DNA of 6,283 nt from Zymomonas sp. GTDB taxonomy: Bacteria; Pseudomonadota; Alphaproteobacteria; Sphingomonadales; Sphingomonadaceae. A program made the position numbers and the translations under genes. Positions 2,193-6,283 of this stretch are shown here, in pieces. Position 1 is the stretch's first letter, and each line of letters begins with the position of its first letter. A model generated the notes under the pieces. That model ran no database searches, was not told where the DNA came from, and saw only the letters and a list, made by a program, of their open reading frames with translations. The stretch spans positions 1 to 6,283 of the forward strand of contig JAIYAJ010000161.1 of the NCBI GenBank assembly GCA_027489105.1. Direction: 5' to 3'.

Positions 2193-2225
2193 TCGGAGCT
2201 GCTCGCAGCGTCAGGTGTTTTTCTT
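2186..2225 (+). terminator. Intrinsic terminator of the integrase operon
   Basis: The arms CGCCTGA (2186-2192) and TCAGGTG (2211-2217) pair over 7 bp with one G-U. Inside them a second stem, GCTG/CAGC, closes on a CTCG loop. TTTTTCTT follows at once. The coiled-coil gene's stop codon lies in the left arm and the convergent minus-strand gene's stop lies in the right arm. The U-tract is only on the plus-strand transcript, so it ends the integrase operon. Confidence 0.8.
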
Positions 2226-2777
2226 CTCGACCGGGTAGACCTGATGCTCAGCGTCCCACCAAACGACGCTGAAATGCGGGCCATTCCGATAGCCCCAGAT
2301 GCGGCCTTTTCCAGTCGTTCGGAACCGGAAGAGCATATCCTCCTCGCGGCCCAGATCGTTGATCCACCGATCCTGTGCCTCTTGCACTATCGAGGACAGC
2401 TCTTGGTCATGGTGCTTCTGATGGCCGCCGGACCTTTGTTGAAGGATTTCGGACCATTTCAGAGCAGACATAGCCATCATGGTCGAACTGACCTCGCAGG
2501 CCCCGCCGTTCTGGCACTCGTGCGAGGCGCACCAATTCCGATGCTGCCCCCAAGTCCATGCGCCCTCTCGATCCGCACTCCCGTGCGCATCGAAGGTCAT
2601 GATCATCTGCATGATGGAAGAGGGGTCAGCGCCTTGTCTGACCGATTTTGCCGGATTGAAAGCGGCCCTCGGCTCCTCAGCCTCAATGACGCGCTCCCGG
2701 AGCCGAGCTTGTTTTTCGGCTCTGTCGAGTTCCTTGGCAAGCTTGCGATCCGCCCGGGCCTGTTTCCGCGACACCAT
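2211..2777 (-). CDS. Putative toxin partner of a Panacea antitoxin
   Basis: This 188-residue protein starts 12 bases after the Panacea gene's stop and is probably the second gene of a two-gene operon. Residues 1-35 are a charged helix rich in Lys, Arg and Glu. Residues 83-94 hold Cys83, Cys88 and Cys94. Residues 108-126 hold WSEILQQR followed by a His-rich KHHD. Residues 149-186 form a compact, probably beta-rich end with FRFRTTGKGRIWGYR and VVWWDAEHQVYPVEKK. I recall this C-terminal pattern from uncharacterised bacterial proteins but cannot name the family. Panacea proteins neutralise many unrelated toxins encoded beside them, so position argues for a toxin; a RelE-like RNase end is one possibility, not shown. 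There is no clear Shine-Dalgarno before ATG 2777, so translation may depend on the upstream gene, which would keep toxin below antitoxin. Confidence 0.8.
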   Translation of the reverse strand: MVSRKQARADRKLAKELDRAEKQARLRERVIEAEEPRAAFNPAKSVRQGADPSSIMQMIMTFDAHGSADREGAWTWGQHRNWCASHECQNGGACEVSSTMMAMSALKWSEILQQRSGGHQKHHDQELSSIVQEAQDRWINDLGREEDMLFRFRTTGKGRIWGYRNGPHFSVVWWDAEHQVYPVEKKNT

Positions 2778-2789
2778 CGGGCAGGCAGA

Positions 2790-3242
2790 TCACTTAGCTG
2801 CGTCGGGACCGAGTGACAGGTAGTATTCCGCCATCGCGTCGAGAGTGATCTCGGCGGAGCACAGATCGCCGTCCCGAACCCCGGCCTTCTCTCGCGTCTT
2901 CTTCCAAGGGTCTTCGAGGTGCGTCAGATCGCTCAGCCATTGAGCCGACTTGCTGCCATAGAACTCGAGAACGGCATCCACCGTCTCCCGAGCGTCTTGG
3001 TCCAACGCTCCGGCATCCCCGGGGATCGATCCCGGCTCGACTGTAAAGCGGCCGCGATGGCTGTTGTAGAGCGAAACGCAGACGGGGCCGTTGGCCCATG
3101 CCTCGATCCGATCGCCGAACATGGGGCGATCGTCCCAAACGAGGGACCACGCCTGGGAATAATACACGAGCTTCTGAAGCTTCATCGCGGACATCGGTCC
3201 ACGAGCTTGGAGGATGTAGTTTGCGACGTCGTTCGCAGTCAT
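2790..3242 (-). CDS. Panacea-domain (SocA/GepA-like, DUF4065) antitoxin
   Basis: This 150-residue protein carries the DUF4065/SocA-Panacea pattern: MTANDVANYIL at the start, MSAMKLQKLVYYSQAW at 17-32, IEAWANGPV at 46-54, LYNSHRG at 58-64, and LSDLTHLEDPWKKTR at about 103-117. It is the usual single-domain length for the family. Proteins of this family act as antitoxins in two-gene systems. Some, such as Caulobacter SocA, act as protease adaptors for their toxin; others bind and block it. ATG 3242 is preferred to an upstream TTG at 3257 because GGGAGGA lies six bases before it. The downstream 188-residue gene is the likely toxin. The promoter at 3388-3416 has a dyad in its spacer, which fits autoregulation, although no separate DNA-binding domain is visible here. 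Family assignment is strong; the pairing is inferred from gene order. Confidence 0.9.
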   Translation of the reverse strand: MTANDVANYILQARGPMSAMKLQKLVYYSQAWSLVWDDRPMFGDRIEAWANGPVCVSLYNSHRGRFTVEPGSIPGDAGALDQDARETVDAVLEFYGSKSAQWLSDLTHLEDPWKKTREKAGVRDGDLCSAEITLDAMAEYYLSLGPDAAK

Positions 3243-3666: not shown

Positions 3667-4125
3667 TCAATGGCTCCCGAACCCGATCCCTTCGGCGGTC
3701 AGTCCGATTGCGATCGTCGCGAGGGCCTTGTCCCGGGCTCGGTACGCCGTCGCCCTCGACCATCCGACGCGCTGGCAAGCGCGGTCGAATGACATCTTCC
3801 GAGTGAGCCGCGATCTGATCCAGACCTTGAGCACGCGCCCTGCGCCCGGCTGATCGAGGAGATACCGCCCCTGCCATGAGAGAACGCGCTCCATCTGGGA
3901 GATGCGCCGGGGCGGGAGCTGGATGCGGAGAGGCCGAGCATCCCCCTCGGCCAGCGGCGGCCAGCCATCGAAATCGGGATCGGCCATGCGGGCAACCTCC
4001 GGCCAGGCGGTGCGCATCCGGGCCGGGCCAACCGGCCCGCTGCTCCGATTGATCCACCTGACAGCATCGAGGAGTTCGTCACCGACGAGCTTCGGTGTCC
4101 AGATATCGGCGGCGAGATCGTCCAT
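3667..4125 (-). CDS. DUF6362-like phage protein with C-terminal helix-turn-helix
   Basis: This 152-residue protein resembles the DUF6362 proteins of alphaproteobacterial prophages. The N-terminus has IWTPKLVGDELLDAVRWI; a middle segment has MRTAWPEV; then RRISQMERVLSW at about 73-84, and a C-terminal helix-turn-helix FDRACQRVGWSRATAYRARDK-like segment at about 113-133, similar in layout to sigma region 4. The family's function is not established; the HTH suggests DNA binding and possibly transcription control of phage genes. ATG 4125 is chosen because TGGAG lies ten bases upstream, whereas the longer frame beginning at GTG 4227 would start inside an intrinsic terminator. It lies downstream of the nuclease gene and is separated from it by that terminator, so it may have its own promoter, though I could not find a good one. 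Confidence 0.75.
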   Translation of the reverse strand: MDDLAADIWTPKLVGDELLDAVRWINRSSGPVGPARMRTAWPEVARMADPDFDGWPPLAEGDARPLRIQLPPRRISQMERVLSWQGRYLLDQPGAGRVLKVWIRSRLTRKMSFDRACQRVGWSRATAYRARDKALATIAIGLTAEGIGFGSH

Positions 4126-4363: not shown

Positions 4364-4867
4364 TCAACAGCTCGGCTTGCGCCCGCTCTTTGCCGCCCGC
4401 CATTCACAGGGCAGCTCGAAGCTCCCCGCCCATATGCTAAGCCCGGAATTCTCTGCCGCGTCCTGATCGGCCGCATATCGGCCCTTCGAATATCTCGGCC
4501 AGTCCAATGCGTGGCCGGATCGGACGAGCCAGGCATTCACCTCCTGCCCGTCAGCGCGAAAGCAGACGGCGACAAGGCGGCCGTAGCGATCGCGGTCCTT
4601 CGACTGGCATCGGGTAGGACGAGAGGCAGCGAGGAAGGCGTCGAGGGCGTCAGCGGCGGTCTTGCCGCAGCGATAGGACTGCCCGGCCGCATCGTTGCAC
4701 GCCTGGCGGCTCTCGGGGCTGTCGATCCCGTCGAGACGGATGCGCTCACTGTCGATCTCGATCGTGTCGCCGTCGATGACGGAGGCGCGACCTATGACGA
4801 CAGGATCAGCGAAGGCGGAGGATGAGAACAGGGCGAAGGCGGATGCGGCAATGAGATGAGACAGCAA
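4364..4867 (-). CDS. Exported thermonuclease-family (SNase-like) nuclease
   Basis: This 167-residue protein belongs to the staphylococcal nuclease family, calcium-dependent phosphodiesterases cutting DNA and RNA. Residues 1-20 are a signal peptide with a hydrophobic core and an AFA cleavage motif before Asp21, so it should act in the periplasm or outside. The OB-fold follows. IDGDT (31-35), RLDGIDSPE (44-52) and DRYGR (93-97) supply equivalents of Asp21, Arg35, Asp40, Glu43 and Arg87 of the staphylococcal enzyme: Asp34, Arg44, Asp49, Glu52 and Arg97. Activity is therefore likely. Six cysteines (57, 67, 87, 102, 154, 167) could form disulfides after export. The start is TTG 4867, preceded at seven bases by AGGAG; no better ATG exists. 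It has a candidate promoter at 5048-5077, a long structured leader and its own terminator, so it may be an independently expressed cargo gene. Confidence 0.92.
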   Translation of the reverse strand: MLSHLIAASAFALFSSSAFADPVVIGRASVIDGDTIEIDSERIRLDGIDSPESRQACNDAAGQSYRCGKTAADALDAFLAASRPTRCQSKDRDRYGRLVAVCFRADGQEVNAWLVRSGHALDWPRYSKGRYAADQDAAENSGLSIWAGSFELPCEWRAAKSGRKPSC

Positions 4868-5722: not shown

Positions 5723-6229
5723 TTAGGTTTCATCGTCAGCGTCCGCGAGCGCCGCCTCTGCTGTCGCGGCATGGTCTTTCGCCCGTTTGGCGGAAGCGTT
5801 GAGGATGCGGATGACTTCCGCGTCTATGGCCCGTCGCAAGCTCATGTCCCGCGTGACACGGGCGGCGAGGCCGAGCAGGTCTGACTTGATGCCGCCGAGC
5901 ACCGTGGCGAGGGTGAAATCAACCTCCTCGACGGGGACGAGCAGGCCATCGTTCCTCGCGTTCTGGATTTCGATCGCCCTGCGACGCGCCGCGATGAGGC
6001 TCGCCTTCTCCGCATCGACAGCCGATGACGCCTTCTTTTCGGCCTGGGCGACGACAGCGCGGATGCTCTCCGCGAGCAGGTACCGGCCACGGCCTGCACG
6101 CTTCACAATCCCTTCGTCAGCGAGATTTCGTACCTGCCGATCAGTGATCCCCAGCAATTCCGCTAGAGCCTTGCCCGTTGCCGTTTCAGGGAGGCCAGTA
6201 TTGTTCTCAATCTTTGAACTATCAGGCAC
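5723..6229 (-). CDS. Small terminase (TerS), lambda Nu1-like DNA packaging protein
   Basis: TerS proteins recognise the packaging site on phage DNA and hand it to the large terminase, the ATP-driven motor and nuclease. Counted from GTG 6229 this one has 168 residues. Residues 18-62 form a MerR-like winged HTH, ALAELLGITDRQVRNLADEG then RGRYLLAESIRAVV, as in Nu1. Residues 64-100 are a charged helix with AARRRAIEIQNARNDGLLVP; about 101-150 (VDFTLATVLGGIKSDLLGL, VTRDMSLRRAIDAEVIRIL) match the oligomerisation part of alphaproteobacterial TerS proteins. GTG 6229 is chosen because GGAG at 6240-6237 lies seven bases upstream; TTG 6235 would be too close. No large terminase follows; the next genes are a small protein and a regulator. 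An unrelated HTH regulator is a less likely alternative. Confidence 0.8.
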   Translation of the reverse strand: MPDSSKIENNTGLPETATGKALAELLGITDRQVRNLADEGIVKRAGRGRYLLAESIRAVVAQAEKKASSAVDAEKASLIAARRRAIEIQNARNDGLLVPVEEVDFTLATVLGGIKSDLLGLAARVTRDMSLRRAIDAEVIRILNASAKRAKDHAATAEAALADADDET

Positions 6230-6283
6230 TTGCAATCTCCATTTTTGTTGACAATCCGGAAACGGAACGCAGTTTTCGAAACA
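6230..6283 (-). other. Upstream region of the TerS-like gene
   Basis: It holds the GGAG ribosome-binding site (6240-6237) and an imperfect palindrome TTGTTGACAA at 6245-6254. A TTGACA hexamer on the plus strand has no -10 partner at the right distance. The promoter for the TerS operon is probably to the right of the window. Confidence 0.3.

Follow-up and report, generated by a model that had tools for sequence, protein, structure and literature searches.

Which activity does a Panacea antitoxin restrain when the Pfam scan assigns the product of the gene behind it to no family? This question is raised by a gene pair in a 6,283-nucleotide contig of Zymomonas sp. (JAIYAJ010000161.1, assembly GCA_027489105.1; hereafter the window, meaning the whole stretch of DNA analysed). 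A preliminary description, made from the sequence alone, saw in the pair a two-gene operon headed by Panacea, with a 188-residue toxin candidate as the second product. On balance, we consider it probable, with moderate confidence, that the locus encodes a type II toxin-antitoxin pair (PanAT), neutralised by Panacea and carried on a prophage-like element, with a second product of the predicted RelE fold that is most likely an mRNA-cutting toxin.

A Panacea gene with a constant partner

The 150-residue product of the first gene matches the SocA_Panacea family PF13274 over the full profile (positions 1-113; E = 1.6e-17; score 64.9 bits, with the cut-off at 25.7) as well as phrog_1281 (9.5e-34), and the Pfam scan detected no further domain in it. 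Its identification as a Panacea antitoxin thus holds, and so does the operon headed by it, the order and adjacency of the two genes fitting a toxin-antitoxin-like unit. The pair stands isolated: the nearest likely upstream gene on the same strand ends at 3667, and the open reading frame (ORF) at 1479-2192 on the other side is convergent.

To follow the pair across genomes, loci were found through the second protein or its alignments, with Panacea not used, in viral contigs, bacterial genomes, phages and a plasmid. A Panacea ORF is located directly upstream, on the same strand, in all 24 of these loci. Of 385 genomes drawn evenly from the class of Marinibacterium (L002), at least 12 carry the family, as do at least 8 of 394 from that of Microbacterium (L010), in each case with Panacea, which in the former class was recorded as upstream; the occurrence rates are lower bounds because the number of candidates that the search evaluates in each genome is limited, and the draws contain known carriers (both centres and, in the second draw, also the genome of L013). 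We take these classes to be Alphaproteobacteria and Actinomycetes, respectively. Two additional copies, fetched separately, are accompanied by Panacea as well, bringing the total to 43 of 43 distinct loci with an upstream same-strand Panacea gene, directly adjacent at 42 (the repeats L025, L037 and L039 are left out of the count). The exception to adjacency, L032, retains remnants of both broken genes in the same order, and L036 ends at a contig edge. By its own terms, the preliminary description would have been refuted by a partner occurring mostly without Panacea; these loci do not refute it, and the pairing observed is far above chance.

The notion that Panacea and its partner are chance neighbours that form no functional pair has a negligible probability, being contradicted both by the 43 loci and by the co-divergence of the two proteins: the distances among 52 Panacea proteins and among their 52 partners correlate with a Mantel r of 0.75, a value reached in none of 10,000 permutations (maximum 0.24; excluded from the set were 10 repeats and 3 loci regarded at that stage as truncated or disrupted). 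Viewed from the other side, 20 of 22 viral-contig loci with a Panacea protein at least 44% identical to that of the window have an adjacent member of the toxin family (L049 and L054 do not); seven of these loci had already been counted, and among the new ones 13 of 15 are paired. Partner exchange nevertheless occurs: in a prophage of Mycobacterium abscessus, a more distant Panacea has a Doc toxin as its partner. A pair of the phage EC.P3 type was detected in 34 of 5,426 Escherichia coli genomes, each with at least 80% query coverage. Four of these 34 regions were viewed, and in three both genes are open; the fourth, in HH97, combines an intact Panacea frame with a disrupted toxin frame, a pattern that we do not use as an argument because it is a single case.

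The partner is predicted to adopt a RelE-like fold

The preliminary description could name no fold for the second product, a verdict that does not stand. The model of the 188-residue protein has the RelE/HigB/YoeB (BECR) arrangement, which would place it, by predicted fold, in the RelE/ParE superfamily. Structural matches (VIA-align) span residues 58-184, with ParE chains among those listed, and the second model, built as a linked chain, contains the same RelE-like region at 213-339. The superfamily of some of the listed PDB toxins is our own assignment. The viral structure library returned nothing at E 0.001.

At the sequence level, the protein matches phrog_8366 (1.9e-11), the NCBIfam family MAG6450_fam (NF046006; 4.5e-6, 27.2 bits, below the cut-off of 40) and the PADLOC profile of NsnC (7.1e-8; residues 95-180 onto NsnC 203-280 of 284). 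Close relatives match NF046006 in 117 of 118 cases (E 0.01), and the relative L018, at 57.2 bits, exceeds the cut-off; phrog_8366 covers proteins of E. coli and Pseudomonas aeruginosa phages almost end to end. Neither entry, as retrieved, names a function. Thirteen Pfam families of the RelE/ParE fold are tabulated in a 2025 review (PMC11980606), and none of them matched 118 members of the family (E 0.1) or 25 members (E 1).

Several sequence features that had been pointed out earlier find a place in this model. The charged N-terminal helix is there at residues 4-33, although it is typical of long forms and is missing or shortened in other aligned members, and the beta-like IWGYR...VVWWDAEHQVYP end (residues 160-182) is modelled as strands. 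The His-rich KHHD segment is present at residues 121-124, with His123 invariant in 118 of 118 relatives of the window branch and found in only 22 of 52 members of a wider set. As for the cluster of three cysteines, Cys83, Cys88 and Cys94 are indeed present but are conserved in only 21, 2 and 23 of the 118 relatives, respectively. A zinc-binding motif was rejected for this lack of conservation, and an EGF-like match (E 0.19) and factor VII chains were judged to be chance matches to the cysteine-containing stretch.

Candidate active site and the branches of the family

Catalysis by YoeB involves Glu46 as general base and His83 as general acid, with Arg59 and Arg65 acting on both the transition state and the substrate (PMC3814384). 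Candidate equivalents of Arg59, Arg65 and His83 in the window protein are Arg153, Arg159 and His178, with spacings of 6 and 19 residues compared to 6 and 18 in YoeB. YoeB chain 2a6q_E (residues 1-84) was aligned to residues 60-179 of the model, so that His83 would fall on His178, provided that the last pairs are ungapped. Conservation was counted among the 118 window-branch relatives (set A2), in the wider set of 52, and among the 120 matches listed in a phage-branch search, which was seeded mostly with that branch. Arg153 is present in 118/118, 47/52 and 79/120 of these, respectively; Arg159 in 118/118 and 51/52, with proline in 61 of the 120 phage-branch matches listed; and His178 in 118/118 and 50/52, with phenylalanine in 57 of the 120. 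Arg151 is fixed in all 118 relatives of the window branch, and Asp175 is invariant in every set counted (52/52 in the wider set and 120/120 among the phage-branch matches listed).

Two observations weigh against an RNase of the YoeB type: a conserved counterpart of Glu46 was not found in the toxin family, and 60 of the 120 phage-branch matches listed lack both Arg159 and His178. We therefore restrict the RNase interpretation to the window branch and lower its odds a little. The phage branch (E. coli and P. aeruginosa; L022, L086 and P0121-P0240) has proline in place of Arg159 and phenylalanine in place of His178 and keeps Asp175; its proteins often terminate in Tyr-Asp-His.

The departure of the phage branch also counts in favour of a different target for the same fold, namely, that the protein inhibits gyrase as ParE does, or is some other RelE-fold protein with no catalytic activity, and is neutralised by Panacea. 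This alternative, which we consider unlikely, further draws on the fold being common to ParE, on the ParE chains in the structural list and on the reported ParE-domain partners of Panacea (PMC8832971). However, the residues with which the RNases catalyse cleavage are missing from ParE toxins (PMC11980606), whereas the window branch fixes Arg151, Arg153, Arg159, His123 and His178 in 118 of 118 relatives, and an hhalign comparison with 13 proteins of the ParE family gave no signal (from 14 fetched ParE loci; L075, with no clear ORF, was left out). Given that ParE lacks such residues and a polar set is conserved here, we favour an RNase over a gyrase inhibitor.

Relationship to known systems

The pair resembles the PanAT systems (Kurata 2022, PMC8832971; NetFlax 2023, PMC10440598) in that a stand-alone Panacea gene comes first, with a small partner directly downstream (12 bases away in the window), and in its occurrence in phages, prophages and chromosomes. 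It differs in the nature of the partner: the ten pairs in Table 1 of PMC8832971 involve membrane, nucleotide cyclase, MazF/PemK-like RNase, toxSAS and Fic/Doc toxins, none with the RelE fold. Kurata 2022 nevertheless reports 88 clusters of Panacea partners, with 938 of 1,268 partner proteins having no domain match, and the present family may be one of these clusters or may be listed in the supplements of PMC8832971 or PMC10440598. The literature searched contains no mention of phrog_8366 or NF046006 and has MAG6450 only as a locus in a table on Mycoplasma agalactiae (PMC3179502); the word 'Panacea' is absent from the main text of the 2025 review (PMC11980606). The pair thus combines Panacea with a RelE-fold family that is described as a toxin by no source searched. 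The earlier idea of an undescribed toxin class survives to the extent that the partner is called a toxin in none of the libraries and papers searched, but not with respect to its fold, which is nameable.

With the RNases of the RelE/ParE superfamily (YoeB, HigB, YafQ and RelE), the toxin candidate shares the predicted fold and, in the window branch, the Arg/Arg/His set with its near-YoeB spacing; it differs from them in that its family matches none of the 13 tabulated Pfam families, as well as in its Panacea partner and in the extra N-terminal helix and KHH segment, and the phage branch differs further at Arg159 and His178. The YafQ profile (PF15738) yielded nothing in two genomes, but the controls were silent too.

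The match to NsnC, which we take to be the name of a Menshen gene, extends the comparison to a multi-gene defence system. The toxin candidate and the C-terminal part of NsnC appear to share one RelE-fold domain. The match is confined to the end of the NsnC profile, however, rather than covering its full length, and no DUF262 or ATPase gene, as in Menshen, was detected among the nine window ORFs scanned. A search of 190 genomes for NsnC gave no match, but here, too, the controls were silent. RelE domains occur in other proteins as well, Cami1 being one. PtuZ of the ptuXYZ system has a HigB/YoeB-like C-terminal domain (PMC11980606); ptuXYZ may be Menshen under another name, in which case PtuZ would correspond to NsnC.

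The alphaproteobacterial SocAB system also includes a Panacea-type antitoxin: Caulobacter SocA works as a ClpXP adaptor (PMC8832971), and the SocA equivalog model NF047745 does match the Panacea protein of the window. If the pair were a SocAB relative (type VI), its toxin would bind the replication clamp. We regard this as very improbable given that the score of 47.8 bits is far under the cut-off of 190 and that the toxin profile finds no match among the genes adjoining the SocA-like proteins of L081-L084, two of which exceed the cut-off; the lowest E value there (0.054) belongs to another ORF. On these two grounds, membership in SocAB is rejected.

Tentatively, and with more doubt than confidence, a broader proposal can be made: a 14th RelE-fold toxin family, spread over Alphaproteobacteria, Actinomycetes, a planctomycete, a gemmatimonadote, and Pseudomonas and E. 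coli phages, would be restrained by Panacea as a phage sensor instead of the usual small DNA-binding antitoxins. The same effector domain would have been recruited into Menshen, and its active site would exist in two or more forms (Arg/His and Pro/Phe). If this is true, one module serves prophage toxin-antitoxin pairs and multi-gene anti-phage defence alike, and the link between Panacea pairs and the effector end of Menshen makes the idea of a shared effector directly testable. For a family whose named members, among those listed here, are 'hypothetical protein' or 'MAG6450 family protein', the analysis supplies a probable fold, a set of candidate residues and an antitoxin that is always its partner, and a stand-alone Panacea with a RelE-fold partner offers a clean case for the binding of unrelated toxins by Panacea.

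Proposed mode of action

Under the favoured interpretation as a PanAT pair, the first gene would supply the Panacea antitoxin, and the second the toxin with its predicted RelE/HigB/YoeB (BECR) domain; translation of the second gene is probably coupled to that of the first. By analogy with YoeB, the toxin would depend on the ribosome, most likely entering the A site and cleaving mRNA by means of Arg153, Arg159 and His178. Panacea would block it by direct binding, the mode by which stand-alone Panacea proteins neutralise the toxins of other pairs (PMC10440598). Should Panacea fail, upon loss of the element or perhaps in response to a phage cue, the toxin would stop translation. The linked-chain AlphaFold2 model of the two proteins has confident domains, a disordered linker and a predicted template modelling score (pTM) of 0.51, with relative placement not fixed; the alignment behind it had 89 rows, of which only 10 covered both proteins.

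A somewhat less remote alternative than the gyrase inhibitor, albeit still an improbable one, is that the second protein is non-toxic alone and that Panacea and its partner form a sensor-effector system for superinfection exclusion that is triggered by a phage product. Panacea has been proposed as a sensor, and ten systems of the same study were non-toxic in E. coli (PMC10440598); the pairs are located in phages, prophages and viral contigs, and one E. coli chromosome has its pair flanked by phage DNA-transfer and Arc-family genes; and the toxin domain resembles the end of Menshen NsnC. The gene order, junctions and constant pairing, in contrast, fit a toxin-antitoxin pair, and the pair is also found on a conjugative plasmid of Rhizobium.

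Layout of the locus and the surrounding element

Features of the window and of the encoded toxin candidate, with their positions and the evidence for each
Feature	Positions	Strand	Evidence
Tyrosine integrase	175-1482	plus	library match
237-residue ORF with no clear family, overlapping the integrase gene	1479-2192	plus	ORF list, library scan
Toxin candidate, 188 residues, second of pair; RelE/HigB/YoeB-like model	2211..2777	minus	phrog_8366, NF046006 (below cut-off), NsnC, fold matches
RelE-like domain (predicted), toxin residues 58-184	2226..2606	minus	VIA-align; same region of second model (213-339 of linked chain)
His178, candidate general acid (YoeB His83)	2244..2246	minus	conservation, YoeB chain alignment
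Asp175, invariant in every set counted	2253..2255	minus	conservation
Arg159, candidate equivalent of YoeB Arg65	2301..2303	minus	conservation
Arg153, candidate equivalent of YoeB Arg59	2319..2321	minus	conservation
KHHD segment, residues 121-124	2406..2417	minus	kept in close branch
Cys83, Cys88, Cys94	2496..2531	minus	not conserved
Charged N-terminal helix, toxin residues 4-33	2679..2768	minus	model, alignments
Intergenic gap, 12 bases, with no Shine-Dalgarno sequence	2778..2789	minus	read from sequence
Panacea antitoxin gene (PanA, stand-alone, SocA-like), 150 residues, first of pair	2790..3242	minus	PF13274, phrog_1281
Staphylococcal-nuclease-like protein	4364-4867	minus	library match
Terminase small-subunit-like protein	5723-6235	minus	library match

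The 12-base gap between the two genes, which had been taken as a sign of low toxin output, contains no AGGAGG-like Shine-Dalgarno sequence upon inspection. This description is correct for the window but does not carry over to the relatives: in 13 of 24, the junction, judged by candidate start codon, is -4, -1 or 0 bases. These overlaps by one or four bases and abutting genes suggest that translation of the second gene in the relatives is coupled to that of the first. In the window and in 10 of 51 relatives (L002, L015, L016, L017, L022, L031, L046, L048, L057 and L065), a single stop codon separates both genes in one frame; a read-through fusion of Panacea and the toxin candidate is formally possible, with about a third in frame expected by chance.

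The genes around the pair encode a tyrosine integrase, a staphylococcal-nuclease-like protein and a terminase small-subunit-like protein, which gives the window the appearance of an end of an integrated prophage-like element or satellite. The phage collection has no near match to it. Searches for tRNAs, Rfam families and promoters in the window found none; the terminator scan gave one, below the number in shuffled sequences, and the inverted repeats close to the Panacea start are imperfect.

Further occurrences of the pair

In four E. coli prophages (L087, L088, L091 and L092), presumably P22-like, RefSeq annotates the Panacea gene and has no gene at the toxin ORF; Arc-family genes lie near the pair in three of the four E. 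coli prophage regions viewed. Two divergent copies of the pair (L006 and L089) are located about 18 kb apart on one contig of the Symbioplanes lichenis genome (G003). In Rhizobium sp. TH2, the pair (L023) is on the conjugative plasmid pTH2b, just upstream of the cbb3 oxidase genes. Finally, in the Mycobacterium phage prophi68-1 (L085, 2495-3447), Panacea is recorded as a 'GepA-like toxin' and its Doc-like neighbour as 'antitoxin', labels that look swapped.
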